Virus record (IMG/VR): IMGVR_UViG_3300036801_000089
Coordinates: 1-50,707 of that record
Source of the DNA: a virus
DNA length: 50,707 bases
Direction: 5' to 3' (one strand)
Shown: positions 4,595 through 50,031 of the stretch, piece by piece
How positions within the stretch are numbered: the stretch's first letter is position 1
How the letters are laid out: the number at the start of each line of letters is the position of its first letter
Notes under the pieces: generated by a model
Seen by the model: only the letters and a program-made list of their open reading frames with translations
Told to the model about the DNA's origin: nothing
Database searches by the model: none
Position numbers and translations under genes: made by a program

Positions 4595-5854
4595 ATGGCA
4601 ACGACTCCCATTGCGCTGTTTAGCGGGTCGCTGGTAGGCGACGTGCTGATTCAGGCCCGCGAAACCGTCCCAGATATGCCCAGTTCGCTGCCCGCGCCCG
4701 TGGCGGCAGCGGCAGTCACGACTCCCGGTACGGGCACGCTCGCGGCAGGCACCTACTTCGTCGAAGTGACGCAGCTAAATCAGTGGGGCGAGACGCTGGC
4801 CTCGACGGAATCCGCGCAACTTACGGTTCTGGCGACCAACGCCATTCAGATCACGTCAGCACTCCAGGTCGGCGCTATTAAAATAAGAGCGTATCTGACG
4901 CAGGCGAATGGCGTTTCCGGTAGCGAATCGCAGTACGTGGAATCGGCGACATCGCCGTTCACGATTCTCGCCCCTCCCACACTCGCGGGATCTCCACCAA
5001 CCCGCAGCACGGCATGGCTCCCTGACTCGGATGGTGGATTCATCTCTGCGGGGGCTATCTATCGCTGGCTGAACGCTGGCATGGAACTCATCGCTCGGAA
5101 CACGGGCGGGTTTCAGGACTATTCGGCGATCGGCAGCGTCATCAATCAGCCGCTCTACCAGATACCGGGAACGTGGAACGCGATTACGGCCATTTGGTAC
5201 GACGGCTACTGGATGGAAGGTGGCGATCCGGGGTACTTCTGGCGACGGAACTCGATTACCAGCCAAGTGTTGTCAAAAGCACACATTTCCGTGAACAACG
5301 GAAGGGCAATCTTGGAAGTGTACCCTCAGCCGGCCAGAACCTCGATCAGCACGACGTTGGTTGGGTCACTGAGCGCCACGGCGACCACGCTGACGCTCGC
5401 AAATGCCGCTTTCACCCTACCATTCGGTTTTGTGTCGATCGGCTCGGAAATCATGGCCTACGCGACTATCAGCGGCAGTACGCTGACGGGCCTGATACGC
5501 GGGCTTGGCGGGACATCAGCCATCGCGCACACGGACGGGGAAACGGCCATCGAGTGCAATATCGCTTGGATGGGCAAACGGCAGTCCTCGCAGACGTTTT
5601 CGCCTGGGCAGTCGCTTTCTGTGTTGCCGATCAGCTCGGGATGGGACCAGCTTCTTGTCCAATACATCGCGGGGCGCGCGAAGATTGTCGAGCATGATAT
5701 GCAGTCGATGAGCGCGTTCCAGCAGGACATGGAAAAACAGATCAAGGCATGGAGCAACGTGAATAAGGGCGTCGTGCGTCGTCGGCAGGTAGGCGGAGGT
5801 AACAGTCCAATCGTGTACTACGGAGACATGGCCGGGGGGATCATCGTACCATGA
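4595..5854 (+). CDS. Head-tail connector / tail accessory-like protein with inserted beta domain
   Basis: This 419-residue protein lies just before the tail hub. Residues 35-130 form a fibronectin-like beta domain (GTYFVEVTQLNQWGETLAST). The rest alternates between a helical segment (AIYRWLNAGMELIARNTGGF) and a C-terminal part ending in a charged helix (FQQDMEKQIKAWSNVNKG). This layout, N-terminal short helical region plus C-terminal helix, resembles podovirus head-completion/adaptor proteins such as the P22 gp4 group, but the similarity is by pattern and position only. The stop overlaps the hub start (ATGA). A one-mismatch copy of the dyad element occurs at 4876-4888. Confidence 0.5.
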   Translation: MATTPIALFSGSLVGDVLIQARETVPDMPSSLPAPVAAAAVTTPGTGTLAAGTYFVEVTQLNQWGETLASTESAQLTVLATNAIQITSALQVGAIKIRAYLTQANGVSGSESQYVESATSPFTILAPPTLAGSPPTRSTAWLPDSDGGFISAGAIYRWLNAGMELIARNTGGFQDYSAIGSVINQPLYQIPGTWNAITAIWYDGYWMEGGDPGYFWRRNSITSQVLSKAHISVNNGRAILEVYPQPARTSISTTLVGSLSATATTLTLANAAFTLPFGFVSIGSEIMAYATISGSTLTGLIRGLGGTSAIAHTDGETAIECNIAWMGKRQSSQTFSPGQSLSVLPISSGWDQLLVQYIAGRAKIVEHDMQSMSAFQQDMEKQIKAWSNVNKGVVRRRQVGGGNSPIVYYGDMAGGIIVP

Positions 5855-8899: not shown

Positions 8900-8912
8900 T
8901 ATTAAAATAATA
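8900..8912 (-). repeat. 13-bp dyad element, copy 1
   Basis: Perfect TATTAAAATAATA on the plus strand, directly after the tail-hub stop and the AGGAG of the next gene. It covers the place where that gene's start codon would be expected. Confidence 0.9.
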
Positions 8913-13040: not shown

Positions 13041-14128
13041 TGGTCAAACGGCTCATTATTATTTTAATACTGATCGCGTGTCCTGCGTTTTTGCACGCGC
13101 AGCAGCTTACCGTGAGCGCCACGGTTACAGGGTCGAACGGCCCGTGGGCCAATGGGACAGCCCACGCTTCCCTGGTGTGTCCAGGAAACGCCCAGGCTTA
13201 TAGCGGCACATTTCCCATTGCGCGCGATACGCCTACGGTCGCGCTCGACGGGAATGGACACTTCTCGCAGGTGCTTTTCGATACGTCACAACTCAAAGAC
13301 GTTAACGGTAGCGCGATGACGACGTGTTCTTACGTATTCAGGATCACCGAGGCGTGCGGAATCTCCAATTTCAGCACAGGTGCGCTCACGGGCATCACTG
13401 GAGCAGGGCCGGTGGACCTCACATCGCAGATCAACACGTTTACGGTGCCACTTTCGGCAGGCTGCGCGGTGCCCGCTGGCACGGTGACCAGCATTACGGC
13501 CACGGCGCCCATTGTGGTGACGCCTACCCCCCTTACAGGCATAGGCGTGGTGAGTTGTCCTACCTGCGCCGCTGGCGGGACCATCAGCATTACGGCGACC
13601 GCGCCTATTGTGATAACCCCTAGCCCGACCACAGGCACAGGCGTAATTAGTTTGAGCATCACGCCGACGACGTGTACCAACCAAGTTATCTCTGCGATCA
13701 GCGCATCCGGGGTAGGCACCTGCCACACGGTAGCGGGCGCGGACATGGCGAATAATACGGTCACAGCGACACAGCTTGCCACACAGTACAGCAAGCTGCG
13801 CTGCGACACGGGACTTGGAGACGGCCTGAACGCCGTGGCTGCGGGCACGTATCTGCAAACGAACTGCTACAACGATTCGGGAGTGACGTGGACGATCACG
13901 CGCATCGGGTGCTTCACCGACAATGGCGGGTCATCGACGCTGAACGCGACGAACGGCGCGGCAACTGGGCTGCTGACTGGTGCGGTGACCTGTACGGCAG
14001 CGGCAGGTGGCGCAGCGGGAACGCAAAGCGCAACAACGACGATCGCCAGCGGCGACGTAATCAAGTTTACGTGGGTTGCCGATGGCACCAGCAAGCAGAC
14101 GGAATGGTTTATATCTCTCACTCAATGA
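13040..14128 (+). CDS. Fibre-like protein with Sec signal peptide
   Basis: This 362-residue protein has an N-terminus (MVKRLIIILILIACPAFLHA) that is a clear Sec signal with cleavage near AHA/QQ (residue 20). The dispersed 13-bp element lies inside it (13057-13069) and supplies the IILI codons. The body is Thr/Ser/Gly/Val-rich and contains two copies of an (S)ITATAPIVVTPxPxTGxGV repeat (about residues 152-210), a repeat type common in phage fibres. Several Cys residues are spaced in pairs, consistent with an exported, disulfide-forming protein. It is the first of four neighbouring genes with signal peptides. Confidence 0.7.
   Translation: MVKRLIIILILIACPAFLHAQQLTVSATVTGSNGPWANGTAHASLVCPGNAQAYSGTFPIARDTPTVALDGNGHFSQVLFDTSQLKDVNGSAMTTCSYVFRITEACGISNFSTGALTGITGAGPVDLTSQINTFTVPLSAGCAVPAGTVTSITATAPIVVTPTPLTGIGVVSCPTCAAGGTISITATAPIVITPSPTTGTGVISLSITPTTCTNQVISAISASGVGTCHTVAGADMANNTVTATQLATQYSKLRCDTGLGDGLNAVAAGTYLQTNCYNDSGVTWTITRIGCFTDNGGSSTLNATNGAATGLLTGAVTCTAAAGGAAGTQSATTTIASGDVIKFTWVADGTSKQTEWFISLTQ
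13057..13069 (+). repeat. 13-bp dyad element, copy 2
   Basis: Perfect TATTATTTTAATA at codons 6-10 of the fibre-like gene at 13040, in frame as IIxLI within its signal peptide. Confidence 0.9.
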
Positions 14129-19414: not shown

Positions 19415-19830
19415 ACCCACTGCCCTGTGCGCGTTTGCTCCGCGAGCCGTTCTGCGCGCGCTCCCACCTGAGTCGCCCAGCGAGACTCTAGCATTTCCGA
19501 CGCTGCACGCTCCCAATCGCCCTGCGCGAACGCGGACAGCATACGAGGGAACCCTTCTAGGCCAGCGAATCCCAAATTGAAGGTCATATTCGCCAGAACG
19601 CCTTGCCGCGCCGGATCAAGCGCCTCGAAGTAGGGTAGGCGCACCTGTAGTTGGGTGAGCACTTTCTGGATGTCATTGGAGAGAAGTAAGTCGATCTCTG
19701 TGTCGGAGAGTCCCACGTCGGTTAGGTTGCGGCCCACGCCGATCGTGGTCTTGCCCACTGTGTCGAGGTAGGGGAATTTTTCTACCCCCTCGTCACGTCG
19801 TAGTTGCGAGGAGATTGAATCGACGGGCAT
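19411..19830 (-). CDS. Endolysin, T4-lysozyme type (GH24)
   Basis: This 139-residue muramidase cleaves the glycan backbone of peptidoglycan. The catalytic spacing of T4 lysozyme is preserved: Glu14, Asp23 and Thr29 within RRDEGVEKFPYLDTVGKTTIGVG. No signal peptide is present, so release through a holin is expected, and holin-like genes converge on it. Its ATG shares its A with the last base of a copy of the 13-bp dyad element (19830-19842), and no ribosome site precedes it. The element replaces the usual Shine-Dalgarno region. Confidence 0.85.
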   Translation of the reverse strand: MPVDSISSQLRRDEGVEKFPYLDTVGKTTIGVGRNLTDVGLSDTEIDLLLSNDIQKVLTQLQVRLPYFEALDPARQGVLANMTFNLGFAGLEGFPRMLSAFAQGDWERAASEMLESRWATQVGARAERLAEQTRTGQWV

Positions 19831-19842
19831 ATTATTTTAATA
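19830..19842 (+). repeat. 13-bp dyad element, copy 3
   Basis: This perfect TATTATTTTAATA sits between two minus-strand genes, spanning from just after the His-rich protein's stop to the first base of the lysozyme ATG (TATTAAAATAAT-ATG read on the minus strand). Confidence 0.9.
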
Positions 19843-22867: not shown

Positions 22868-22868
22868 G

Positions 22869-23566: not shown

Positions 23567-23725
23567 ATGCGAGACACTACGAATCTGAACATTCGCAAAT
23601 TTCCCAATCATTTACTGACAACGCTAAAGATTCAAGCAACGCTGCGCGGGTTGACACTGAAGGATTTTGTCATCAAAATTCTCGGCGATGCAACGAAACG
23701 AGGCGAACAAGGACGGTCCACATGA
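23567..23725 (+). CDS. Ribbon-helix-helix (CopG/Arc-type) regulator
   Basis: This is a 52-residue protein. NLNIRKFPNHLLTTLKIQATLRGLTLKDFVIKIL has the beta-strand, helix, GLTLK turn, helix pattern of ribbon-helix-helix DNA-binding proteins, which bind operators as dimers. It is similar in arrangement to the N-terminus of the protein at 38717. It overlaps the next gene (ATGA). No ribosome site precedes the ATG, consistent with the leaderless promoter. A longer in-frame ORF on the same strand (from 23542) is rejected because it lacks this match. Confidence 0.75.
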   Translation: MRDTTNLNIRKFPNHLLTTLKIQATLRGLTLKDFVIKILGDATKRGEQGRST

Positions 23726-23847
23726 AGCGATATTATTTTAATAAGTACGCAGTGTTTAACGAAGTAATGGCGCTGGTTGGCGTGGCCCTGCTGATCGTGT
23801 GCGCGTGGCTGCTGGCCGTCGCGTTTACGCCGAATGGAGGACGATGA
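23722..23847 (+). CDS. Small single-pass membrane protein
   Basis: This 41-residue protein has one transmembrane helix (VMALVGVALLIVCAWLLAVAF). It is coupled to its neighbours by ATGA overlaps on both sides. A copy of the dyad element (23731-23743) lies at codons 4-8 and encodes YYFN directly after MKR. Confidence 0.6.
   Translation: MKRYYFNKYAVFNEVMALVGVALLIVCAWLLAVAFTPNGGR
23731..23743 (+). repeat. 13-bp dyad element, copy 4
   Basis: Perfect TATTATTTTAATA, in frame as TAT TAT TTT AAT A (YYFN) nine nt after the ATG of the small membrane protein. Confidence 0.9.
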
Positions 23848-26001: not shown

Positions 26002-26062
26002 TCCTGGGAGACTCGGGATACTAACCCATACATTCTCCGGCTCCCAGGATTGTTATTTCAAT
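26002..26062 (+). terminator. Hairpin at end of the 24.6-26.0 kb transcription unit
   Basis: The arms TCCTGGGAG (26002-26010) and CTCCCAGGA (26041-26049) pair perfectly, with a 30-nt loop, and are followed by the T-rich TTGTTATTT. It could end transcription of the zinc-ribbon gene. A degenerate copy of the dyad element (TGTTATTTCAATA, two mismatches) lies right after the stem at 26051-26063. Confidence 0.4.
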
Positions 26063-26136
26063 ACTGTAGCGGGGAACTCGTCGGTAAAATGGCTTTTTGA
26101 AATCACTGGCGCGTAACGGAACTGCGAGGTACCTGA

Positions 26137-28433: not shown

Positions 28434-28437
28434 GTTA

Positions 28438-28680
28438 ATGCCTCACACAAGATTAACTAAAAGCAAGTCTCTCGTTGGCCAAGAGGAAACCATTACGGCA
28501 ATGGACCTGCGTAAAACTCCTGGCGATATTTTGATGCAGGTTCAAATGGGGGAAATTTTTAACATTACCAGAAATGGCGTTATCGTTGCTGTGCTGTCGG
28601 CACCCGAGATGAATGCTCTAGAGCTTGGAGCAGAAGTACGTAGGATAGAGCACAAGCGGGAGAGGGAGCAGGGGGGATGA
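28438..28680 (+). CDS. Phd/YefM-like antitoxin-type protein
   Basis: This 80-residue protein starts at ATG 28438 behind GGGAGAGGGA. The stretch TITAMDLRKTPGDILMQVQMGEIFNITRNGVIVAVLSAPE matches the Phd/YefM fold: an N-terminal regulatory region before the strand that ends in '(I)ITxxGxPVAVL'. These proteins repress their own operon and neutralise toxins. No obvious toxin neighbours it; it may be a phage repressor or anti-defence element. The stop overlaps the next start (ATGA). Confidence 0.65.
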   Translation: MPHTRLTKSKSLVGQEETITAMDLRKTPGDILMQVQMGEIFNITRNGVIVAVLSAPEMNALELGAEVRRIEHKREREQGG

Positions 28681-28931
28681 TAAAACGTAACGAGTTAACT
28701 GACCCCTCTAGTTGCATGAATCGCGCCAAGGATAATGAGATGACATTCGTTTTATTGGGCCGTGATGTTGCCGCCCCAGTAGCAATCAGGGCTTGGGTTA
28801 TAGAGCGTATTCGCATCGGAAAGAATGTGGCTGACGATCCACAAATCGTAGAGGCAATAAAGTGTGCCGCAGAAATGGAACGTAACATCTCTCAGGCCGA
28901 AGGTTGCGTGAAAGGGATTTGCAAAGAGTAA
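28677..28931 (+). CDS. Hypothetical phage protein (common early-gene type)
   Basis: This 84-residue protein has DNEMTFVLLGRDVAAPVAIRAWVIERI, a pattern I recall in small phage proteins ('(D)EPVFVLRAQDxLAxxVVRxW'). It overlaps the Phd-like gene, so it may be its partner, though nothing marks it as a toxin. Confidence 0.5.
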   Translation: MIKRNELTDPSSCMNRAKDNEMTFVLLGRDVAAPVAIRAWVIERIRIGKNVADDPQIVEAIKCAAEMERNISQAEGCVKGICKE

Positions 28932-31851: not shown

Positions 31852-31967
31852 AAACCATCAAAGAGTGGCTAGAGTCGAAATGGTTCTTCTGTGGGAACTG
31901 TACGGCGAAACTGTGCGCCGCATGGCGACCGGCGCAGTGTCCCAAGTGCAAGGCGATGATTTATTAA
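31848..31967 (+). CDS. Small zinc-ribbon protein ending in a dyad element
   Basis: This 39-residue protein has two zinc knuckles, FCGNC and CPKC. Its stop codon (31965-31967) lies inside a perfect copy of the 13-bp dyad element (31962-31974). Small zinc-ribbon proteins of this size are common in this genome. Confidence 0.65.
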   Translation: MKTIKEWLESKWFFCGNCTAKLCAAWRPAQCPKCKAMIY

Positions 31968-31974
31968 AATAATA
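31962..31974 (-). repeat. 13-bp dyad element, copy 5
   Basis: Perfect TATTAAAATAATA on the plus strand, covering the stop codon of the small zinc-ribbon gene, 30 nt before the J-domain gene. Confidence 0.9.
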
Positions 31975-32615: not shown

Positions 32616-33075
32616 ACAATCCGGCACCGATGAAGTGACGCGCCTTCGTCGGGAGATCGCGGGCTTGGAACAAGAATTGCGCGATGCCAAAGACGGCGAG
32701 GAAATGGCCAAACAAGCTAGTTCCGACGCCCTCCAAGTGATACGAGCTTTACGGGAATCGCCACTCGCTCAAGTCCACAAGGTTCTAAAAATGTTATTCG
32801 GGGAAATATCACGCGTCGATGCCGGAGAAGTAACGCCCCCTCAAGTCGAAACGACATCGCGCGCGAATTCTGTATGGGACAAATGGATTCAGAAACTTGG
32901 GGGCAATCGCGGCGCTATTTTGAAATCGCTTTTGGAGCACGGAGAAATGACGCGCGTTCAGTTGCGCGTAGCCTCCCAGGTTCCCGAAGGCAGTCTGAAC
33001 GGGATTACCAGTGAGCTTTACAAGATGGGGCTTATCAATCGCGCTGGCGGGAAATACAGTCTAAAACAACTCTAA
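32593..33075 (+). CDS. Coiled-coil wHTH DNA-binding protein
   Basis: This 160-residue protein starts at an ATG behind AGGAGG. Residues 13-50 form a coiled coil (VTRLRREIAGLEQELRDAKDGEEMAKQ). Residues 100-160 carry a winged-helix pattern (GAILKSLLEHGEMTRVQLRVASQVPEGSLNGITSELYKMGL). It overlaps the previous gene and ends 1 nt into the next. It is probably a regulator or replication factor. Confidence 0.6.
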   Translation: MAQPFLAEQSGTDEVTRLRREIAGLEQELRDAKDGEEMAKQASSDALQVIRALRESPLAQVHKVLKMLFGEISRVDAGEVTPPQVETTSRANSVWDKWIQKLGGNRGAILKSLLEHGEMTRVQLRVASQVPEGSLNGITSELYKMGLINRAGGKYSLKQL

Positions 33076-33704
33076 TGCCCAACCTTGCCATCACGAAAAA
33101 GGAAGCTCTCGCCAGAACCGCCGAGATCAAGCGGGAGGTAGGCACGGCGAAGAAAATGCGGATTCGCATCCTGCGCACGATCGCCGCGAGCGTAGACCGC
33201 CGCGAGTACGAGATTGCCGGGTTTGAGGATCTGGCCGCGTGGCTGGAGCATGTCGGGATAGAAACGAGCGTGAGCCACTTCCTGCGACTGCTGCACAACA
33301 TTCGGGCTTTGAAGCATGTCACTGACGCCCAGTTGGAAGCGATGCCGGAGGGTAACGCCCACACCCTCGCGCGATTGCCGGAAAAGACGCGGCGCGACCC
33401 GAAGATGATTGAACGCGCGGTAAGTGAGAAGCCGGCAGAGTTCAAGGCTCGGGTCGAGGGAACGACGAAAGAAGCGCCGGAGGGATGGAAAACATTCGCG
33501 CTGCGCGTTCCAGAGGGGGTCTATGGGTTGATGATCCGTGCCCAAGAGAGGGTAGCTAACGTCTTACAGCTTGATCTCAGTGATGAAGTTAAACGTACAG
33601 CCAATCTCATCACCATTTGGGAAGGAATTGCTCAAATGGTAGTTGATTCACAGTTATCCGACGTGCGGATTAAGACTGAACTCGTTGGAAATGATTCAGA
33701 ATAA
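33075..33704 (+). CDS. Helical DNA-binding-like protein
   Basis: This 209-residue, mostly helical protein has a central SVSHFLRLLHNIRALKHVTDAQLEAMPEGNAHTLARLPEKTR. This segment resembles partition/DNA-binding helical proteins. The C-terminal region ends in a charged RHH-like stretch. No definite family was recognised. It converges with the nuclease gene on the opposite strand, overlapping its 3' end by 73 bp. Confidence 0.5.
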   Translation: MPNLAITKKEALARTAEIKREVGTAKKMRIRILRTIAASVDRREYEIAGFEDLAAWLEHVGIETSVSHFLRLLHNIRALKHVTDAQLEAMPEGNAHTLARLPEKTRRDPKMIERAVSEKPAEFKARVEGTTKEAPEGWKTFALRVPEGVYGLMIRAQERVANVLQLDLSDEVKRTANLITIWEGIAQMVVDSQLSDVRIKTELVGNDSE

Positions 33705-34967: not shown

Positions 34968-35311
34968 CATCTCTCGTTTCACGATCACTGGCCGAGCTGC
35001 GCAAGCGGGCGCCGCATTGCCCAGTGGACAAGGCCGAGCGGTGGATACCCGGCGCCAACATCCGGCGTGACCTCTTCAACCTGTTCGATCTGGTCTGGTT
35101 ATCGTTGAGCATGGACAGCCAGGATGGTCAGATCGTAGGGATACAGGTGACGGACAACGCGCACCTCGCCGAGCACATCACGAAGATCAAGGCGAATCCG
35201 ATCACGAAGCAGTGGGTCGCCTGCGGCGGCGGGATCACGGTCCACGCCTGGGCGAAGATGGGTGCCCGAGGGAAGCGGAAGCGGTGGACATTGACGGAGC
35301 ATGACCTATGA
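34964..35311 (+). CDS. Small nuclease-fold-like phage protein
   Basis: This 115-residue protein starts at a GTG overlapping the previous stop. FNLFDLVWLSLSMDSQDGQIVGIQVTDNAHLAEHITKI has the strand-loop-strand layout of small PD-(D/E)XK-like proteins, with D in LFDL and a Q-x-T ('IQVT') in place of E-x-K. HAWAKMGARGKRKRWTLTEHDL closes the fold. Function is a hypothesis from pattern only. Confidence 0.45.
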   Translation: MTSLVSRSLAELRKRAPHCPVDKAERWIPGANIRRDLFNLFDLVWLSLSMDSQDGQIVGIQVTDNAHLAEHITKIKANPITKQWVACGGGITVHAWAKMGARGKRKRWTLTEHDL

Positions 35312-35469
35312 AGCTGCCCAAGTTGCTGATTAAGCTGGCGCCAGAGGCGCGTTGCGTAAGGTGCGGGCAAGCGGGATATGTAGCGGAAAAAGCAGAACTC
35401 TGTTTAGCGTGCCTCAACGTAAGTCTTTTGATCTACGCGAAGCGGAAGAAAGCAGAGGTATTAAAATAA
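35308..35469 (+). CDS. Small zinc-finger protein ending in a dyad element
   Basis: This 53-residue protein has CVRCG and CLACL, two CxxC pairs. Its last codons, GTA TTA AAA TAA, are supplied by the dyad element (35459-35471), so the C-terminus reads VLK. The minus-strand protein ending at 46978 also ends in VLK written by the same element. Confidence 0.6.
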   Translation: MKLPKLLIKLAPEARCVRCGQAGYVAEKAELCLACLNVSLLIYAKRKKAEVLK

Positions 35470-35471
35470 TA
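35459..35471 (-). repeat. 13-bp dyad element, copy 6
   Basis: Perfect TATTAAAATAATA on the plus strand. It covers the stop of the zinc-finger gene and ends 1 nt before the ATG at 35472. AGAGG lies immediately upstream, so the element sits between a ribosome site and the start codon. Confidence 0.9.
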
Positions 35472-37037: not shown

Positions 37038-37053
37038 AGACTTACGCTCCTAT

Positions 37054-37066
37054 TATTAAAATAATA
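37054..37066 (-). repeat. 13-bp dyad element, copy 7
   Basis: Perfect TATTAAAATAATA on the plus strand. On the coding (minus) strand it is TATTATTTTAATA, lying between the stop of the AAA+ gene and the ribosome site of the small membrane peptide. Confidence 0.9.
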
Positions 37067-37070
37067 CTGC

Positions 37071-37742
37071 CTACTGCGCGAGCAATTCTAATTCTAGGGC
37101 CATAAGTGCGGTCCTGACGTTGTTTGTCGCGTCTTTTGCTATGCGTAGGAAGTCTGGTACGGTCGAGGTAGGCTTCGCTTCGACGGTCCACACTCGCGCA
37201 AGCAATTCTGCGAGTGCTTCGCGCATCCCGTAAGAGCTGAACTCCAACACGCGACACCTAGACAGGAATCGTTTCTCCATGCCATCGGTGCCATTGCCCG
37301 TGAAGATCCAGATCGTTTGCGGTGGCGCCGCAGTGCTGTCCAATTTCGACAATAGCGCGAGCTGGGCGCCATCGGTCATTCGGTCAAATTCATCGACACA
37401 GACCACGTGGAAGCCGCCACCTTGCGGACAGTACCAGCACATGCGCGTTACTTCATCAATCGCTTGCGCGGTACACCGTTGACTCGGGATATGGTGGAAT
37501 TCGCCGCCGATCGCCGCACACAATGCCTGCGCCATAGACGTTTTACCCGTGCCAGGCGGTCCGACAAACACCCACGCGCTAACAGTGGGCCGCGTGGCGA
37601 ACGCCGCGAGTATCTTCTTCACCTTGTCGAGCCCGATAAACTCGGGAATCGTGGAGGGTCGATACTTTTCGGCCAGTGGCTTGTTAAGGTGCTGATTGAA
37701 TACGCTCGGGTCGCTATTCGGAAACAGGCTTTGTGTGCTCAT
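37071..37742 (-). CDS. AAA+ clamp-loader-like ATPase
   Basis: This is a 223-residue, RFC/DnaX-like protein. Walker A is GPPGTGKTS (61-69), Walker B VVCVDEFD (113-120), the arginine finger is in an FLSRCRV (SRC) motif at about 159-165, and a sensor-2-like NVR occurs near residue 209. It begins with KYRPSTIPEFIGLDKV, the usual clamp-loader N-terminus. It would load a sliding clamp for replication, though no clamp or polymerase gene is in the window. It is expressed from the minus-strand promoter at 38026-38055. Confidence 0.8.
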   Translation of the reverse strand: MSTQSLFPNSDPSVFNQHLNKPLAEKYRPSTIPEFIGLDKVKKILAAFATRPTVSAWVFVGPPGTGKTSMAQALCAAIGGEFHHIPSQRCTAQAIDEVTRMCWYCPQGGGFHVVCVDEFDRMTDGAQLALLSKLDSTAAPPQTIWIFTGNGTDGMEKRFLSRCRVLEFSSYGMREALAELLARVWTVEAKPTSTVPDFLRIAKDATNNVRTALMALELELLAQ

Positions 37743-38716: not shown

Positions 38717-39142
38717 ATGGCAGCACTCCACATCCGTGACATCAGTGACGCATTATTAAAGCAGTTGAAGAAGGATGCGGTCGAGTGTGGATTGACGCTG
38801 AAGCAGTATGTGGTTGGGAAGTTGGCAACGCCGAGCGGGAGCGGGGTAGTGAAACAGGATCACGCGAGCCTCATAAGCTCGAATTCCGAGTGCAACTCTC
38901 GGCTCCGCAACCAGAATGAGGTAGAGGATGAGGAATCCCGAGAAGATCAAGATAGTGGAGCAATGGACGTGCCTAGGAGTGAGGCGGTACCAACGGTTAG
39001 CGGACGGGAGCCTGCTAGAACTCGAAAGCGGAAGCCTGCTGGCAAAAGAGCCGGTAACGGTGATAAACCGACCTGCATCCACGGAGCCGAGAAGGGGTAC
39101 TACTGCGGGATGTGTGGAGGGAAAGCGAAGATCGTCGAATGA
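38717..39142 (+). CDS. RHH regulator with C-terminal zinc ribbon
   Basis: This is a 141-residue protein. Residues 1-38 (LHIRDISDALLKQLKKDAVECGLTLKQYVVGKL) form a ribbon-helix-helix domain. The middle is Asp/Glu/Ser-rich and basic (REPARTRKRKPAGKR), and the C-terminus (CIHGAEKGYYCGMCGG) is a zinc ribbon. The upstream direct repeats suggest it represses its own promoter. The GLTLK turn resembles that in the small RHH protein at 23567. Start ATG 38717 is preferred to the longer ORF from 38633. Confidence 0.7.
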   Translation: MAALHIRDISDALLKQLKKDAVECGLTLKQYVVGKLATPSGSGVVKQDHASLISSNSECNSRLRNQNEVEDEESREDQDSGAMDVPRSEAVPTVSGREPARTRKRKPAGKRAGNGDKPTCIHGAEKGYYCGMCGGKAKIVE

Positions 39143-39152
39143 GGGGTGAGGA

Positions 39153-40184
39153 GTGAAAGCCGCGATAGTTCTGACCTCGATCAACGACTGCGAAGAACTC
39201 CTCGACGGGTACCTTGATAATCTCAGCAGGTTTGGACGCGAAGCCAGTATTATTTTAATACCGGACATGAAAACGCGAGCGCAGAGGATTCGCAAAGCGG
39301 TCAAGTGTCCGACGATGGGGGAGCAAGATTCATTCCTCAAGATCGTGGGTTTACCACCGCAAGAAATCCCTTTCAACTCCGACAATCGCCGCAACGTAGG
39401 CTACCTGATGGCGCTGGTCGAAGGCGCCGAGATGATTGTGTCGATCGACGATGATAACTTCTGCCCAGTGAGCGAAGACTTTATCGGGGCGCACCTCGCG
39501 GCGCTGGAGAAGCACAACCCACTAGTCAGCACTGAAGATGGCTGGTACAACAATTGCAATCTGCTGAAAATCATGGGGCGGGAGATCTTCGCCCGCGGAT
39601 TCCCCTACTACGCGCGAAAACCGTTCAAGATGCACACACAATACGCGCAAGATGGGGAAGTGGTCATTAATGCGGGGATGTGGACAGGCGCGCCGGATGT
39701 GGATGCGATTACCTGGCTCCAGCGTCCCGGACACGTGGCGCGGTGCACGGGCAATGCGGTGTTGGCTCCCGATACTTGGTGCCCCATCAATTCACAGAAT
39801 ACGGCAGTGCGGCGGGACGCGATGGCCGCATATTATTTTGTGTGCATGGAAGCGCCGATTGATCGCTACGGAGATATTTTTCAAGGGTACTTCGCATTGA
39901 AGTGCGCGAAGCACTTAGGATTGACGGCGCGGTTTGGAACTCCAGTGGCGACGCATCGGCGTAACTCGCACAACTATCTGGCCGACGCGGAGAAGGAAAT
40001 TTTCGGGATCAGGCTCATGGAAGAATTGCTTCCGAAGTTGGTTGAGCATAAACTGACGGGCAGTTCGTTCGGCGAAGCGTACTTGTCGCTCGCGGATTTT
40101 ATCGAATCGCAGGACGCACAGTTTTTCAAGAACACGGCGCGCCGAATGCGGCTGTGGGCTACGACGTGCCAAAGGATCGGATGA
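39153..40184 (+). CDS. Glycosyltransferase-like protein (GT75/RGP type)
   Basis: This 343-residue protein starts at GTG 39153 behind GAGGGGTGAG. It contains SIDDDNF (DDD at 99-101), GYLMALVEGAEMIVSI, a MWTGAPDVDAITWLQRPG block and PINSQNTAVRRD, features of the reversibly-glycosylated-protein / GT75-type family and related sugar-nucleotide-using enzymes. It starts the sugar-gene cluster. A dyad element lies in frame at 39248 (codons for SIILI, residues 32-36) and a degenerate one near 39831. Confidence 0.7.
   Translation: MKAAIVLTSINDCEELLDGYLDNLSRFGREASIILIPDMKTRAQRIRKAVKCPTMGEQDSFLKIVGLPPQEIPFNSDNRRNVGYLMALVEGAEMIVSIDDDNFCPVSEDFIGAHLAALEKHNPLVSTEDGWYNNCNLLKIMGREIFARGFPYYARKPFKMHTQYAQDGEVVINAGMWTGAPDVDAITWLQRPGHVARCTGNAVLAPDTWCPINSQNTAVRRDAMAAYYFVCMEAPIDRYGDIFQGYFALKCAKHLGLTARFGTPVATHRRNSHNYLADAEKEIFGIRLMEELLPKLVEHKLTGSSFGEAYLSLADFIESQDAQFFKNTARRMRLWATTCQRIG
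39248..39260 (+). repeat. 13-bp dyad element, copy 8
   Basis: Perfect TATTATTTTAATA, in frame within the GT75-like gene as AT-T ATT TTA ATA (IILI), using the rare codons TTA and ATA. Confidence 0.9.
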
Positions 40185-40231
40185 AAGCTGAACACCTTTC
40201 TGTGAAGTGGTCGAAGGCATCGTAGGCCGAA

Positions 40232-40897
40232 ATGAGAATGCTTGATTTATTTTGCGGACGTTGGGGCTGGAGTAAATCCTTTGCTCTGCGCGGGTGGCAT
40301 TGCATCGGTCTTGACTTGGTGCGCCCACCTGAGATTCCGTTTGCGAACTGCGAATTCATCTGTGAGGACATTCTCAATGTCGACGCGCGTTGGGTTAACA
40401 ATGACAGATTCGATTTCATCTGCGCTTCGCCGCCGTGCCAGCAGTTTTCGGTGCATGGCATGAAGCACTTCCATCCGAATCCGCCGTACCCGAAATTGGG
40501 CATTCAGCTATTCGAGTATACGCGGAGAATTTGCGAGGAATCAGGCGTGCCTTACGTGATTGAGAATGTGCGAGCGGCACAGCAATTCGTGGGCAATGCC
40601 GTGCATCACTGCGGGCCGTTTTATTTGTGGGGAACGGGAGTGCCGCCGCTGGTAAGCCGCGGTGTGAAAAAGGGCATTGATTGGGGATCGTCAAAGGCCG
40701 TGAACGCCATGGCAACTCAGGAAGAAAAGCGCAAGTATCGTGACAAGCCGTACTACCACAACCGCGCCTTTTCAATGAGCCTCAAGCGCCATGAAGATCA
40801 GGCCCGAGTGGCCACGATCCCGCCCGAACTTTCCAACGCCGTGGCCGATTATGCCAAGAGGCTTTTGGAACAGAGAGCGGTGAGCACGGCATCGTAG
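40232..40897 (+). CDS. DNA (cytosine-C5) methyltransferase
   Basis: This 221-residue protein has the C5-cytosine methyltransferase motifs: LDLFCGRWGWS at 4-14 (motif I, SAM), the catalytic ASPPCQQFS at 65-73 (motif IV, Cys69) and IENV at 110-113 (motif VI). It is shorter than most Dcm-type enzymes and lacks an obvious large target-recognition domain. It may protect phage DNA from restriction or start a cytosine modification. Confidence 0.8.
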   Translation: MRMLDLFCGRWGWSKSFALRGWHCIGLDLVRPPEIPFANCEFICEDILNVDARWVNNDRFDFICASPPCQQFSVHGMKHFHPNPPYPKLGIQLFEYTRRICEESGVPYVIENVRAAQQFVGNAVHHCGPFYLWGTGVPPLVSRGVKKGIDWGSSKAVNAMATQEEKRKYRDKPYYHNRAFSMSLKRHEDQARVATIPPELSNAVADYAKRLLEQRAVSTAS

Positions 40898-40926
40898 GCC
40901 GAAAAGATTTGGGGCTAAAAGCTGAC

Positions 40927-41121
40927 ATGTCGATTGGAAACCCAAGCGAACACTATGCTCTGCTTTCAGAGCTGGAATATTTTCACATGGACCGTGAACA
41001 ACTAATTTTCGTAACGATTTGCAGGGAGCTAACGAAGCGAGGAAAGATTCAACCCTTTAAAGCGGCGCACCTCGCGGAAATTGTCGAGGCTGAACTTTTG
41101 CGGTGGGAAAAGTGGCAATGA
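40927..41121 (+). CDS. Small hypothetical protein
   Basis: This is a 64-residue helical protein (AHLAEIVEAELLRWEKWQ). ATG 40927 is used; TTG 40909 is in frame but inside the AAAGATTTGGGGCTAAAAGC repeat. No family was recognised. Confidence 0.4.
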   Translation: MSIGNPSEHYALLSELEYFHMDREQLIFVTICRELTKRGKIQPFKAAHLAEIVEAELLRWEKWQ

Positions 41122-41149
41122 AAGATTTGGGGCTAAAAGCAAAAGACCC

Positions 41150-41168
41150 GTAACGGACATTTGGGAGG
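41150..41168 (+). promoter_or_regulatory. Shared GTAAC-N-TTTGGGAGG translation leader (copy 3 of 3)
   Basis: GTAACGGACATTTGGGAGG provides GGGAGG, 6 nt before the GTG start at 41175. It matches copies at 26622 and 28950. Confidence 0.55.
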
Positions 41169-41174
41169 CGGACA

Positions 41175-41459
41175 GTGAAAATTTCCAAGTGGGTTGACAT
41201 GTCACAGGAAGTAGAAATTGAAATTGGCTGTGACGACATCCGCGGTGCACTAGCGGAACAGTTTGCCATCGTCGCGGTTGACGGGTCGCATGCGGGCGAA
41301 CTGACGTTGGCGTTTAGCTGCATCGCTAAGTTTTTTAATGCCCTCGCTGATGAACAGATAGCGTTATTGACCATCAATCAACGCCGTGTCGTTGGGAACT
41401 ACCTGAGCGATCAGGCCAAGCGATTCGCAATCACCGAAGTTGCGGGCCACGCGGTCTAA
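41175..41459 (+). CDS. Hypothetical protein
   Basis: This is a 94-residue protein with GTG start after GGGAGG. It has a mixed alpha/beta composition (VEIEIGCDDIRGALAEQFAIVAVDG). Its last codons belong to GTTGCGGGCCACGCGGT, which is repeated 70 nt further on. Function unknown. Confidence 0.45.
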   Translation: MKISKWVDMSQEVEIEIGCDDIRGALAEQFAIVAVDGSHAGELTLAFSCIAKFFNALADEQIALLTINQRRVVGNYLSDQAKRFAITEVAGHAV

Positions 41460-41553
41460 CAGAACCAAGATTTGAGCACGGCGACCGAGCACGCAGCACC
41501 AAAGTAGAGTTGCGGGCCACGCGGTTTCAGAAAAGATTTTTGGGATAAAACCT
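41460..41553 (+). other. Intergenic segment with repeated 17-bp sequence
   Basis: GTTGCGGGCCACGCGGT occurs at 41439-41455, ending the preceding gene, and again at 41509-41525. The rest includes AGAAAAGATTTTTGGGATAAAACC just before the radical SAM start. No gene or promoter was identified. Confidence 0.5.
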
Positions 41554-42912
41554 ATGGCTAAAGTGATCCTTGCTGGCGGTCCAAGTTTTGCCCTGTTCAA
41601 CCCGTCGCTTCACGCGAGCCTTGGGCTTCTCTACCTCGCATCTGCCCTGCGCGAAGTAGGCCACGAAGTTAAAATAATCGACTGCCACAAAATTTCCACG
41701 TTCGATCCCGAAACCAACAAACTGATCGTCCGCCACGAGGACATGGAACCCTGCGACATCCTGGGCGTGTCGATCGTTACCCCGAACGCGGAGTTTGGCG
41801 GGCAGCTCGCCGCGGCGTGGCCGGCGAAAGTGAAAGTGGCTGGCGGGCCGCATGTGACCTACATCATCGAAGGGCCGCACGCGCACTTCAAGCAGAAGAA
41901 GTATTTCGAGGGCTTCGATTTCCTGATGACCGGGGAGTGCGAGGAATCGTTCGTCGAGTTTTGCAACAAGTGGGACCGGGGAGAGGATGTAACCAAGGTT
42001 GCTGGTGTGGCATGGTTCGGGCCGCTCGGGATGCAGCACCTTCCCTCACCGCCGCTGCCTGATGTGACGAAGATGAAAACTCCCGCATATGATCTGTGGG
42101 GAAATTATTCTAAGGGAGGGCTTAATGTCACTTCCATTCACGGGACCAGTATCGACGTGGCAGAAAGAACCATCGGCTCCCTCTGGACCGCAAGAGGATG
42201 CCCCTACGGTTGTTCCTTTTGTGCCGACGCCCGAACCAAACTTCGAGAAGAAACCTTTGACCAAATCGAATCGGAAGTCAAAGCCCTTGCCGAAATCGGA
42301 GTAACGGCGTTACGCGTTTGGGATGATGTGCTCACGATTAAGGCCAAGCGTTGCCGGGAACTCGCGGCACTCTTCCACGACTACGGAATGCTGTGGCGCG
42401 GCTGGAGTCGAGTGAACTTGATGGACCCTCAGCTATTCAAAGACCTCGCTGCTCTCGGTTGCACCGAAATGGGATTTGGCGTAGAGCACGGCTCGCGTCG
42501 AATGCTGAAGGCGATGAACAAAGGGACAACACCAGAGGCGAATACCAAAGGGGTGAGGCTCTGCCAAGATGCGGGGATCTCGGCTCGCGCCTACTTGTTG
42601 ATTGGTTTTCCCGGTGAAACTTGGGAGTCCATCGAGGAAATGCGGCAATGGATAGAAGATTGCCACCCCGACGCTGCAAGCCTGCACATGTTTCAACCAT
42701 ACCCAGGGTGTGAAGTGTGGAACGTGCCGGAGAAATTCGGCGTTACGATTCCACCCGATTCGTTCTCGAAGATGTGGGAACTAAATGATGACGACCCCAG
42801 CACAACGGTTCTTGATCTTCCGACTATGAACACAGCAGAATTATTTGAAGCCCGAAAGATGCTCCACAACTGGATTACCGAAAATATCTCTCTGCGTTTG
42901 GCTACCCGTTGA
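41554..42912 (+). CDS. B12-binding radical SAM enzyme
   Basis: This is a 452-residue protein. Residues 5-145 form a B12-binding domain (SLGLLYLASALREVGHEVKIID, a VAGGPH block at 95-100). Residues 205-420 form a radical SAM domain with the [4Fe-4S] motif RGCPYGCSFC (C216, C220, C223), a G-E-x-G-S block (VEHGSRR) and a Gly-rich LIGFPGE. Enzymes of this class (for example BchE-like and methyltransferase-type) make unusual modifications. It sits within glycosyltransferase genes, so modification of a sugar or base is plausible. A degenerate dyad element occurs at 41669. Confidence 0.85.
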   Translation: MAKVILAGGPSFALFNPSLHASLGLLYLASALREVGHEVKIIDCHKISTFDPETNKLIVRHEDMEPCDILGVSIVTPNAEFGGQLAAAWPAKVKVAGGPHVTYIIEGPHAHFKQKKYFEGFDFLMTGECEESFVEFCNKWDRGEDVTKVAGVAWFGPLGMQHLPSPPLPDVTKMKTPAYDLWGNYSKGGLNVTSIHGTSIDVAERTIGSLWTARGCPYGCSFCADARTKLREETFDQIESEVKALAEIGVTALRVWDDVLTIKAKRCRELAALFHDYGMLWRGWSRVNLMDPQLFKDLAALGCTEMGFGVEHGSRRMLKAMNKGTTPEANTKGVRLCQDAGISARAYLLIGFPGETWESIEEMRQWIEDCHPDAASLHMFQPYPGCEVWNVPEKFGVTIPPDSFSKMWELNDDDPSTTVLDLPTMNTAELFEARKMLHNWITENISLRLATR

Positions 42913-43622
42913 GACTCAGTATTATTTTAATAGGCCGCTCCGATAATTACGGCGGCGACTTCGTAGGCCGCTTAAACCGCTCACTGGAAAGCATCATGCC
43001 GCTCGGTGCCGAAGTGATCTTCGTCGAGTGGAATCCGCTCGGCGACCGCCCGCGCATCAACACTGAGATTCGACATCGCGGCGTGCGCATCATTACCGTG
43101 TACCCGGAAGTTCACCGCTCGCTGCCGGGACATGAATTGTTTCCAGTATTCGAGTACCGCGCAAAGAACGTGGGGATTCGCAGAGCAAAGGGCGACTGGA
43201 TTCTGTGTCTAAACTCGGACATCATCCTGAGCGAACAAATGCTGCGGTGCCTCACTTGCTCATTCGATGACACCTGTTTTTACCGAGCGCGGCGGCACGA
43301 CATGGACGGCGAGAGACTGGTGCAAATCTGTGATGGCCCAGGAGACTTCGTACTTATGCACAGGATTCGCTGGAACCATCTTCGCGGATACCTTGATCTG
43401 GTAAGCTACACACACCTTGACTCGCTGCTATTGTGGAATGCGCTCGACGCGGGCCTGCAAGATGCGAGGCTTGAGGCTCCCATCATCCACCAGGAGCACG
43501 ACCGCAGCGAACACAAACTGCGAACCGGAATCCATTCCAGCGACATGCCCAAGTTTATCGGAATGAAAAACGACGAGGATTGGGGACTCGCAAACCATCA
43601 ACTGCCCGAGGTGACGACGTGA
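42909..43622 (+). CDS. GT2-like glycosyltransferase
   Basis: This 237-residue protein starts at TTG 42909, overlapping the radical SAM stop (TTGA). The start MRLSIILIGRSDNYGGDF has the GT-A beta-strand 1 of family 2 glycosyltransferases, and residues 90-101 have the conserved GDWILCLNSDI metal-binding block. The dyad element supplies the IILI codons. It ends coupled to the next gene (GTGA). Confidence 0.7.
   Translation: MRLSIILIGRSDNYGGDFVGRLNRSLESIMPLGAEVIFVEWNPLGDRPRINTEIRHRGVRIITVYPEVHRSLPGHELFPVFEYRAKNVGIRRAKGDWILCLNSDIILSEQMLRCLTCSFDDTCFYRARRHDMDGERLVQICDGPGDFVLMHRIRWNHLRGYLDLVSYTHLDSLLLWNALDAGLQDARLEAPIIHQEHDRSEHKLRTGIHSSDMPKFIGMKNDEDWGLANHQLPEVTT
42920..42932 (+). repeat. 13-bp dyad element, copy 9
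   Basis: Perfect TATTATTTTAATA, in frame as IILI (codons 5-8) of the TTG-start glycosyltransferase at 42909. Confidence 0.9.
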
Positions 43623-44629
43623 AGGTTGGCTTGCTATACCCGACAGTCGGTGCTCTCGTAGAAAAAATGGCGGCAATTTTCCCCGGACTCACCGTCATAG
43701 GCCCGCCCTGCGACGATCTCTACAAATGGGATAAGCGCATCCTGCCGCTCGCCAAGGCCAACGGACGCATCGCGGAGTGGAAGGAACTGGGCCTCGACAT
43801 TCACTTCGAGGAAAAGCCCTACAGCGAATGCGACTTCTCGAAGTTCGATCTACTGATCGAATCGGTCGAAACATTCAACTACGCTGCATCGTGGCGCGAG
43901 CACTGCACACGTATCGAGTGTCCCATTATCGTGTTCGTCTGCTGGTACGATTCCCCAGCCTACCTTCCGCACGACTACCTCAAGAAAATAGAAAACTTCC
44001 CAGTCCTGCTCGGGATGCCTTCGCACTTGAATGCGTGGCGCGCTGCGCTGCCTGACGTGAACCCCGCTGCTGTTCCGGTAGGCGACTGGTGGTTCGAGCG
44101 TCCGTGGACAGGAGTGCGCGAGGAAGCCTTGTTCGTGCTAGCGGGCAAGGACATCTGGCGCCCTGCGGACAAGACGGTGTGCGGCGTGGATCTGTGGGAA
44201 AAACTCTGTGAACGGTTTCCAGGAAAGATGCACCACCACGACGGAGCGATCGACTTCAAGACCTCGAAGCAGATGGCCGAGATGTGCAGCGAGTATCGCG
44301 TGTTCGTGAACCTCGACCGCAGCGGTGCGCGCCCACTGTGTACCTCGTTTACGGAAGCGGTTGCTGCGGGAATGCCCGTAATAGCTCGGAATCAGCCGGG
44401 ATTGTCCTACAAGGATTACATTAACGGAAACGGGGTCTGCACAGATAATTTCGACGAGATGTGTGATTTCATTGAGCAGTGTTTTGAAAACATGGAGTTT
44501 GCGCGGGAGTGCAGCCGCCAAAGCCGTAAGATTGGCAAAGCGTCATTCTCGGTCGAGGCGGTGCGCCCGACTTACGAAGAGGCGGCGGTGCGCGCGATGG
44601 CCGTGTTTCACCAGGGGCATTGGCGATGA
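43619..44629 (+). CDS. GT-B (GT4-like) glycosyltransferase
   Basis: This 336-residue protein starts at GTG 43619, overlapping the previous stop. The Rossmann C-terminal donor domain carries SFTEAVAAGMPVIARNQPG (about residues 242-260), the conserved E-x(7)-E region of GT4 family proteins. There is no signal or membrane segment. It would add a sugar from a nucleotide donor. Confidence 0.75.
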   Translation: MKVGLLYPTVGALVEKMAAIFPGLTVIGPPCDDLYKWDKRILPLAKANGRIAEWKELGLDIHFEEKPYSECDFSKFDLLIESVETFNYAASWREHCTRIECPIIVFVCWYDSPAYLPHDYLKKIENFPVLLGMPSHLNAWRAALPDVNPAAVPVGDWWFERPWTGVREEALFVLAGKDIWRPADKTVCGVDLWEKLCERFPGKMHHHDGAIDFKTSKQMAEMCSEYRVFVNLDRSGARPLCTSFTEAVAAGMPVIARNQPGLSYKDYINGNGVCTDNFDEMCDFIEQCFENMEFARECSRQSRKIGKASFSVEAVRPTYEEAAVRAMAVFHQGHWR

Positions 44630-45456
44630 TCTCCCTACTTCTCCCATCCCGCAAGCGCCCGGAGATTTTCGCACGCATGGTCGAATCGGTAAGAAAGACC
44701 GCGATAAAATATGTCGAGATTGTGGCTATGTTTGATGAGGACGACGAAGCGAGTGCCGAGGCTGCGAAGGTTGATCCCAAGACATGCGCCGATATTATTT
44801 TAATAGGACCGCGCCTGCGCCAGATGACCGTATATTGGAATCTATGCTTCGATCATTGCAAGGGGGCGATTGTCTGCCAAGCAAACGATGACATGGTGTT
44901 CACCACAAAGGGTTGGGATGTAATGGTCGAGGATGCCTTCGCAGCGGTGCCCGACAAGATCATGCTGGCGCACGGCTCCGATGTATTCGGTCACGGCAGT
45001 AACTTTGGACCGCACGCCTTCGTAAGCCGAAGGTGGGTCGAAGCACTGGGATATTTTATCCCTCCGTACTTTTCGTCAGATTTCGGCGACGCTTGGATTT
45101 GCGAGATAGCGAACATGCTCGGTCGCCGGCGCTTCCTGAATTTCAACATTGAACACAGACATTTTTCCCACGGCATGATGGAGCTGGACGAGAACACAGC
45201 CGAACGGCTCCAGCGGCACCGCGAGGATGATCCCGAAACGCTGTACTACAGTCCAGCGATGCAAGCGGAACGGCAGCGCGACGCTGAGAAACTAGCGAAA
45301 CTCATGGACAAAAACCTGAGCACAAAGGGCTGGTGCCCGCCGCATTCGAACATACGAAGCGCGGGGATGTGCCCGCATTGCGAGAGCCTGTCGACCGTGG
45401 CAGTGGGCGTGGGGAAGTTTTTTTGCAACCGCTGCGGAAAAGACTTCGTGAGATGA
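44626..45456 (+). CDS. Glycosyltransferase-like protein with C-terminal zinc ribbon
   Basis: This is a 276-residue protein. It starts at ATG 44626, overlapping the previous stop (ATGA), with AGGGG 8 nt upstream; TTG 44620 would be too close to it. The GT-A core has ISLLLPSRKRPE, EIVAMFDEDDE and a metal site QANDDM (86-90). Residues 249-276 (CPHCESLSTVAVGVGKFFCNRCG) are a zinc ribbon closely similar to the 1051 protein. A dyad element sits at 44793 (codons ADIILI, about residues 56-60). Confidence 0.75.
   Translation: MISLLLPSRKRPEIFARMVESVRKTAIKYVEIVAMFDEDDEASAEAAKVDPKTCADIILIGPRLRQMTVYWNLCFDHCKGAIVCQANDDMVFTTKGWDVMVEDAFAAVPDKIMLAHGSDVFGHGSNFGPHAFVSRRWVEALGYFIPPYFSSDFGDAWICEIANMLGRRRFLNFNIEHRHFSHGMMELDENTAERLQRHREDDPETLYYSPAMQAERQRDAEKLAKLMDKNLSTKGWCPPHSNIRSAGMCPHCESLSTVAVGVGKFFCNRCGKDFVR
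44793..44805 (+). repeat. 13-bp dyad element, copy 10
   Basis: Perfect TATTATTTTAATA, in frame as IILI within the GT at 44626 (segment ADIILIGPRL). Confidence 0.9.
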
Positions 45457-46121
45457 AACTCGAACTCCTAATCCTTAGTATGCCAACCCGCGTAGAATTT
45501 CTGAAGCGGTTGCTTTTGTGTCTTGCACGTCAACGTGAGGGAGTTGGGAACGTAGCAGTGCGGATCAGAACATGCGATCCAAGCCTTACTCTCGGGGAGA
45601 ACCGCGAGCTATTGCGACGGGCTTCCAATGCCGAGTACATTGCTTTCGTCGATGATGACGATCTCGTGGCTCCAGATTATGTGTCCACAATTCTGCCACT
45701 ACTTGACGGCGTGGACCAAATTGGTTTTGAACTTCAATGCTATATCGACGCAGTAGCCCTGCCAAAAAAGACTATTCATTCATTGAGGCATACCGGATGG
45801 TTTGAAAATGCACTCGGATATTTTCGGGACATCTCGCATCTAAATCCGATGCGGCGCGAACTCGCGCTACTTGAACCGATGGAAGGCGGGCACGGAGAGG
45901 ACAAACGATGGTCGGATCGGATGCGCGGGAAGGTCAAGACGGAACACTACATCCCGCGAGTCATGTACCATTATTATTTTAATACGAAGAAGAATCAGGG
46001 TGCGCCGTGCCCGAAATGCGCGAGCGAATCAACGGTGCTGGTCGAGACGGGAACATGGTGCAACGGCTGCGGGGTTCTGTTTTCGGAACATCCTATTCAG
46101 AAGTCGTGTCTTTGGGTGTAG
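45453..46121 (+). CDS. GT2-like glycosyltransferase with C-terminal zinc ribbon
   Basis: This 222-residue protein starts at ATG 45453, overlapping the previous stop. The GT-A core has ELLILSMPTRVEFLKRLLLC and the metal motif FVDDDD (67-70). A zinc ribbon, CPKCASESTVLVETGTWCNGC, lies at residues 186-206, close to the C-terminus. The dyad element at 45972-45984 encodes YYFN upstream of the ribbon. The 3' end overlaps the convergent gene at 46093 by 29 bp. Confidence 0.75.
   Translation: MKLELLILSMPTRVEFLKRLLLCLARQREGVGNVAVRIRTCDPSLTLGENRELLRRASNAEYIAFVDDDDLVAPDYVSTILPLLDGVDQIGFELQCYIDAVALPKKTIHSLRHTGWFENALGYFRDISHLNPMRRELALLEPMEGGHGEDKRWSDRMRGKVKTEHYIPRVMYHYYFNTKKNQGAPCPKCASESTVLVETGTWCNGCGVLFSEHPIQKSCLWV
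45972..45984 (+). repeat. 13-bp dyad element, copy 11
   Basis: Perfect TATTATTTTAATA, in frame as YYFN between the glycosyltransferase domain and the zinc ribbon of the protein at 45453. Confidence 0.9.
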
Positions 46122-46975: not shown

Positions 46976-46988
46976 TATTATTTTAATA
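46976..46988 (+). repeat. 13-bp dyad element, copy 12
   Basis: Perfect TATTATTTTAATA. On the minus strand it supplies the final V-L-K-stop codons of the small basic protein at 46978-47169, and it lies just upstream of the zinc-ribbon gene at 46887. Confidence 0.9.
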
Positions 46989-47169
46989 CTGGCCGCTTGC
47001 GCTTCCATCGGGCTAGTGCGGCGTCGCGGGCCTTCAAACGGTTAGCGCGTGACTTCGCAGGACTCGATACTCTCCCGCCTTTGGCGCCACGGCAGGAGAG
47101 ACACGGGAATGGCCGTGAGTGAATTGCGCAGATGCCTTGAGTTTGTGTTCCTCTCATAGTGATGCCCAA
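46978..47169 (-). CDS. Small basic phage protein
   Basis: This 63-residue (or 59 from M5) protein has IHSRPFPCLSCRGAKGGRV...SRANRLKARDAALARWKRK, a pattern widespread in small phage proteins. The internal ATG 47157 is a possible start. It is divergent from the gene at 47228. Confidence 0.6.
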   Translation of the reverse strand: MGITMRGTQTQGICAIHSRPFPCLSCRGAKGGRVSSPAKSRANRLKARDAALARWKRKRPVLK

Positions 47170-50018: not shown

Positions 50019-50031
50019 TATTAAAATAATA
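50019..50031 (-). repeat. 13-bp dyad element, copy 13
   Basis: Perfect TATTAAAATAATA beginning on the base after the terminase stop codon, before the ribosome site of the HNH gene. Confidence 0.9.

Follow-up and report, generated by a model that had tools for sequence, protein, structure and literature searches.

Here, we propose that a 13-base near-palindrome, dispersed in letter-perfect form over the genomes of one phage clade, is the site of a phage-encoded ParB-type protein, likely the 209-residue product of ORF 33075-33704, which would act there as on a set of dispersed operators or roadblocks. We give this reading about an even chance of being correct. Selection acts on the DNA sequence of the element and not on the peptide that it encodes, and its copies arose through substitution, not insertion. 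We present below the evidence on the element itself, on its distribution and on the protein that may read it, and weigh the proposal against four alternatives.

Results

Sequence and abundance of the element

The stretch of DNA analysed here (the window) is a phage contig of 50,707 bases with 54% GC, and it holds 13 exact copies of TATTATTTTAATA, 8 on the plus strand and 5 on the minus. The 13-mer has the arms TATTA and TAATA about a TTT centre. A second-order model of the window predicts 0.0002 copies where 13 are observed, dinucleotide shuffling of the window gave no copy in 100 shuffles, and a de novo search returned the 13-mer as the top over-represented word in the window (G000) and in its closest long relatives, G002 (56,455 bases) and G004 (55,793 bases). 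In the element-bearing genomes, TATTA-NNN-TAATA dyads always have TTT or AAA at the centre, so that all 13 positions are fixed. Near-misses in the window come to one copy with a single mismatch (4876..4888, minus strand, TCTTATTTTAATA) and three with two mismatches. One of these three, at 37051, overlaps the exact copy at 37054..37066, and another is a relic at 26051..26063 (plus strand, TGTTATTTCAATA), a place where G004 has an exact copy (29862). Invariance this perfect is stricter than expected of ordinary operators, which counts against reading the sites as such.

Distribution among relatives

Relatives at many distances were gathered by scans with the capsid, glycosyltransferase and terminase proteins of the window. 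G002 and G004 carry 16 and 17 exact copies respectively; each has 127-base terminal repeats, and from these both look like complete circular assemblies. The window itself is incomplete, unlike circular G002 and G004. Exact copies are also present in each of the four partial clade contigs examined (G001, G003, L217 and L221), and there are none in the 16 other relatives tested, whose capsid identity is at most 91% where compared. A search for over-represented words in the relatives that do not have the element found no comparable perfect k-mer. We considered ATGCCCAAC as their counterpart and rejected it, as its enrichment extends to many members of the family, among them the window. No near match to the window was found among phages. 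A scan of genome contigs with the capsid protein found no relative or close prophage, and a scan with the terminase found relatives only at 31% identity or less and no close prophage.

Placement, orientation and spacing

By our count, the three long genomes together have 46 copies, of which about 38 are found at gene starts, at stops or between genes and 8 deep within glycosyltransferase genes. The element had been linked to the sugar cluster in a preliminary description of this DNA; it is not special there, but extends along the entire genome, for the most part where genes begin or end. On the minus strand of the window, the copy at 8900..8912 (also in G001, G002 and G004) lies 4 bp past the stop of ORF 5851-8895, and that at 37054..37066 lies past the stop of a clamp-loader-like gene (37071-37742, minus strand). 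A third (35459..35471) spans the stop of ORF 35308-35469 and is followed directly by an ATG, and a fourth (50019..50031) stands directly past the terminase stop codon, with the next ATG 13 bp on. The fifth minus-strand copy (31962..31974) is upstream of ORFs 32004, 32593 and 33075, and its counterpart in G002 and G004 overlaps the ATG of the ParB-HTH-like gene discussed below. On the plus strand, the copy at 46976..46988 contains the stop codon of the minus-strand ORF 46978-47169, and the copy at 19830..19842 overlaps the start codon of the minus-strand lysozyme gene (19411-19830); in G002, a different gene (20362) has a copy at its start codon. Copies within coding sequence often fall in signal-peptide-like starts (IIILI). 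The copy at 13057..13069 (plus strand) lies within the signal-peptide codons of ORF 13040 (MVKRLIIILILIAC), and that at 23731..23743 (plus strand) reads in frame as YYFN at the start of a 41-residue membrane protein, MKRYYFNKYAVF.

The placement at starts and stops may largely reflect coding tolerance, because the element has stops in most of its frames. The preliminary description claimed that proteins accept the element only in permitted frames, and the in-coding copies do sit in stop-free frames. Both orientations relative to transcription occur, with no overall bias; copies inside genes have TATTATTTTAATA in the direction of the gene, and intergenic copies mostly its complement. In G002 and G004, the copies are spaced more evenly than chance would give (CV 0.56 and 0.64; P 0.01 and 0.04, respectively), a result that is marginal for both.

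Selection on the DNA in glycosyltransferase genes

The remaining four exact copies of the window, all on the plus strand, are within glycosyltransferase-like genes that are also on the plus strand. The first (39248..39260) supplies codons 33-36 of an RGP-family gene (39153..40184), reading ATT ATT TTA ATA, or IILI. The second (42920..42932) gives IILI at codons 5-8 of a GT2-like gene (42909..43622), and the third (44793..44805) gives IILI in a GT2-like gene at 44626..45456, whose start may be 44620 or 44626. The fourth (45972..45984) reads TAT TAT TTT AAT, or YYFN, in a GT2-like gene with a C-terminal zinc-ribbon-like stretch (45453..46121). The identity of the first gene is firm (PF03214 RGP, E 2e-17), and those of the other three are weak GT2 matches below the Pfam cut-off. 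The four copies are exact and in frame (three IILI, one YYFN), and their positions in the four proteins are non-homologous to one another, all as first described. The codons TTA and ATA are indeed rare: in long ORFs, TTA occurs at 4.7 per 1000 codons and is the rarest Leu codon, and ATA at 6.9 is the rarest Ile codon.

Orthologous copies retain all 13 bases, although their flanks are only 74-90% identical. Homologues of the glycosyltransferase genes from outside the clade align through the site at equal length but differ in the codons, and often in the residues, of the corresponding columns: IFLI or IYLI for IILI, IICAG for IILIG, and HYYFR-type sequence for HYYFN. In ORF 45453, where the element stands in place of YYFR/YYSR-type sequence, the Arg present in every outside homologue aligned is Asn in the element-bearing clade. 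In five element-bearing genes, we compared the I, L, Y, F and N codons at which the amino acid is conserved: the codon was identical in 44 of 44 comparisons in the element, against 419 of 639 outside it, the pairs being non-independent; the earlier contention that the DNA site and not the peptide is under selection is borne out by this contrast. In addition, the G002 homologue of ORF 44626 is 80% identical in protein yet is without the element, and thus the protein does not need it. Taken together, the equal-length alignments, the changed codons and residues and the codon invariance show that the copies originated by substitution and that the element is kept for its DNA sequence. Insertion, whether as a mobile element or a transposable repeat, was considered as an origin and rejected, since the glycosyltransferase alignments show no gain of 13 bp relative to the empty site.

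A candidate reader of the site

What might read the element? The protein encoded by ORF 33075-33704 (209 residues) is found only in the three near-complete element-bearing genomes (the window, G002 and G004), and it had no match in phage and plasmid records. Its first 132 residues (33075..33470, plus strand), a predicted DNA-binding domain of the ParB/Spo0J/Noc type, are 93-95% identical to the G002 and G004 versions, and the remainder is more diverged. The full-length model is poor (pLDDT 55.7), so the N-terminal domain was modelled alone (pLDDT 77.6, pTM 0.69), the model being built on three near-identical sequences. Foldseek with this model placed Spo0J at the top with weak E-values (above 1). 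Structural re-alignment then gave Z 6.5-7.8 over 97-113 residues for 4umk, 6t1f, 6s6h, 1vz0, 7ng0 and 7nfu, which are ParB, Spo0J or Noc structures, some of them parS-bound; the next unrelated row stands at Z 2.8. With moderate confidence, the model suggests that the N-terminal ~130 residues fold like the parS-binding (HTH) domain of ParB/Spo0J/Noc. Pfam and PHROG returned no match by which this domain could be named, and no sequence family matched it. The N-terminal CTPase (clamp) domain of ParB is absent: residue 1 of the model aligns with chain residues 99-125, and the protein begins just before the HTH region, which leaves no room for a clamp domain. A search for a ParA partner found no AAA_31 match over the cut-off in the window, G002 or G004. 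A weak AAA_31 match at 21040-21195 falls in a kinase-like gene.

A copy of the element overlaps the candidate gene's own start codon in both G002 and G004, as one would expect for an autoregulated DNA-binding protein. The window has its nearest upstream site 1.1 kb ahead of the gene, before ORFs 32004 and 32593. The C-terminal domain (33471..33704, plus strand) is homologous to free proteins of 79-109 residues, which a profile of the domain detected in seven element-free relatives (G005, G006, G007, G008, G014, G017 and G020). These seven have the C-terminal domain only, as a free protein, and in G014 its gene adjoins an HNH gene, as in the window. Since the C-terminal domain is alone in element-free relatives, the DNA-binding domain is confined to the clade that has the element. 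On this correlative evidence, the 209-residue protein is most likely the reader of the site. Counting against it, the element-bearing genomes are a single clade, so that the co-occurrence of protein and site amounts to one evolutionary event, and other small clade-specific genes exist; the Foldseek E-values above 1, the Z scores under 8 and the three near-identical sequences behind the model also count against it, as do the absence of a Pfam or PHROG match naming the domain, the missing space for a CTPase domain and the 1.1 kb between the gene and its nearest upstream site in the window.

Discussion

If the 209-residue protein is the reader, what might its role be? We infer that it binds the site and that it acts as a repressor. 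In the history that we envisage, an ancestral small protein would have gained a ParB-type DNA-binding domain in this clade. The 13-17 sites would then have arisen via point mutation, most of them where genes start or stop, and others inside genes where a stop-free frame allowed. The protein, probably dimeric, would occupy these sites as operators or roadblocks, would repress its own gene through the start-codon site seen in G002 and G004, and would damp or time the transcription of many phage genes, including those for lysis, the virion and sugar modification. More tentatively, as a possibility that falls somewhat short of probable, we suggest that this is the recent birth of genome-wide control, in which a resident small protein acquired a ParB-type domain without the CTPase clamp and point mutations then gave rise to more than 12 letter-perfect sites over the genome, overruling conserved glycosyltransferase residues.

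The same protein and site could instead have a structural role, bridging or marking the DNA for extrachromosomal segregation, compaction, packaging or shielding in the manner of parS or Noc sites, which we consider unlikely. The predicted ParB/Noc fold, the tolerance of deep intragenic positions and the absence of an overall orientation relative to transcription are in keeping with such a role, and near-total invariance fits parS-like sites as well. The more even than random spacing in G002 and G004 also favours it, but that test is marginal. The role is harder to reconcile with the lack of a ParA above the cut-off, with the lack of a CTPase domain for clamp loading or spreading, and with most sites being at gene starts and stops, although coding tolerance alone could produce this last pattern.

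It is similarly improbable that the site is read by something other than the 209-residue protein, be it another clade-specific phage protein, a host regulator or a nucleoid protein. There are further clade-confined proteins (18866, 23722, 34498, 36238 and others), and a ribbon-helix-helix protein (23567-23725) adjoins the site at 23731 in the window. This protein was rejected as the reader, as it is missing from G002 and G004, and the remaining clade-specific proteins have no DNA-binding fold by Pfam. A reader from the host would leave the absence of the site from close relatives unexplained, if the hosts are shared.

We think it very doubtful that the element is a promoter, that is, an A/T-rich -10-like box recognised by a sigma factor or polymerase of either host or phage. 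It is A/T-rich, it includes TATTAT and TAAAAT, and several copies are directly ahead of an ATG, but it occurs in either orientation relative to the downstream gene and at no fixed distance from genes, and its deep intragenic copies face no gene start. In addition, 13 of 13 positions are invariant, far beyond what a -10 box would show, and no common sequence is apparent in the upstream flanks. The preliminary description took the element as a possible mark of swap points in the sugar cluster. We find it scarcely credible that the element marks places of gene swapping or recombination, whether in that cluster or at other loci. Several whole-gene indels do abut it exactly (for example, 31974/33088 against G004 and 50019 against G002), but of 86 length-changing homology junctions collected from the three long genomes, 20 touch an element (to within 22 bp), whereas equally large random sets of gene boundaries score 20.8 +/- 3.7 (p 0.63) and random positions 3.9. 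Ordinary gene-boundary mosaicism thus explains the junctions at elements. In addition, the deep glycosyltransferase sites are mostly within continuous homology, and no tyrosine integrase or recombinase was found in the clade (the relative G009 has such an integrase).

Returning to dispersed operators read by the 209-residue protein, relatives with capsid proteins 90-91% identical retain the unfused state and, if the proposal is true, would allow the emergence of a dispersed-operator system to be traced stepwise. Of stoperators and KorB-OB, it is the finished product that is known, whereas here one can compare related phages that have the system with others that do not, and a single domain separates their versions of the candidate reader. 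Should binding be confirmed, it would mean that a phage can quickly install a genome-wide regulon and that a ParB-type DNA-binding domain can operate without a CTP clamp or ParA. It would also provide a clean case of selection on a DNA site overriding protein sequence.

How does this system compare with known ones? The repressor C1 of phage P1 serves many operators dispersed on the phage genome; these are 17-bp, asymmetric and degenerate, and C1 is unrelated to the phage candidate. ParB-parS, Spo0J and Noc systems have multiple near-invariant palindromic sites. The candidate resembles these proteins in the predicted fold of its DNA-binding domain, but differs in having no CTPase domain and no ParA, and its site is 13 bp and A/T-only as opposed to 14-16 bp. 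On plasmid RK2, a replicon of 60 kb, OB is present in about 12 copies with a 13-bp core, and KorB also works with IncC, a ParA. KorB, with its ParB-family DNA-binding domain, silences many genes of the replicon from short palindromic operators near to or far from promoters; it has a CTP-binding clamp domain and acts with KorA (PMC11790492). The phage system shares with KorB-OB a ParB-type DNA-binding fold (predicted) and short palindromic dispersed sites. Unlike KorB, the phage protein has 209 residues, no room for a clamp domain and no ParA that we could find, and its site has a different sequence.

The stoperators of Cluster A mycobacteriophages (L5, Bxb1) are sites with a 13-bp core that are dispersed on the genome and specific to subclades, and one lies upstream of the reader's own gene, where autoregulation has been proposed (PMC6550527). 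One mycobacteriophage repressor is described as a monomer that places two domains on an asymmetric site (PMC9283540). Like them, the phage element forms a set of 13-17 short dispersed sites, often near gene starts and stops, with one at the start codon of the candidate reader's own gene in G002 and G004. The two differ in that stoperators vary from site to site, have no symmetry and are oriented with transcription, whereas copies of the phage element are letter-perfect, near-palindromic and without a fixed orientation. Each known system has a defining feature that is missing here, the CTPase clamp and ParA in the case of KorB-OB and orientation in the case of stoperators. Thus, by analogy, the phage system appears comparable to KorB-OB or to the stoperators while being a member of neither.

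Repeated sequences in the window and in related phages

A 9-mer, ATGCCCAAC, is present in excess in most genomes of the phage family to which the window belongs (for example, the related genomes G006, G008, G010 and G020), its copy number reaching 7-9 in four family genomes vs 0.2-0.4 expected, with 4 copies in the window. Its flanks are without a clear consensus, other than a preference for T/A on the 3' side. A 20-nt repeat, AACCGACTGGCGCGTAACTG, also occurs in the window at 26100, 26609 and 26971, in surroundings with few genes; two of its three copies are exact.

Other repeated words were observed in other phage genomes. Related genome G007 has TCAGTGCGTCACC four times, spaced by about 400 bases, at 38902-40086 (loci L060-L061), and G016 has 4 copies of GGGCTAGGCTCCTT inside 800 bases at 27995-28760 (locus L075). 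Strongly repeated 13-mers are found in L184, L177 and L203 (GAATAGCCATGCT 15 times, AGGTCGGCACCGC 10 times and TGTACGCTGACTA 8 times), phage contigs of more remote kinship that were retrieved using the 24602 protein.

Individual genes of the window

On the minus strand, a single ORF at 21230-22915 combines a glycosyltransferase-like part with a sulfotransferase domain. In the region 40216-41140, the ORF at 40232-40897 matches no more than the initial third of a C5 cytosine methylase and may be a truncated gene; short direct repeats lie on both sides of it (40216/40888 and 40903/41121). Immediately preceding site 23731, an exact copy of the 13-bp dyad element (23731-23743, plus strand), is a gene (23567-23725) for a ribbon-helix-helix protein of 52 aa, present only in the window genome among the genomes compared and weakly matching FitA-like proteins.
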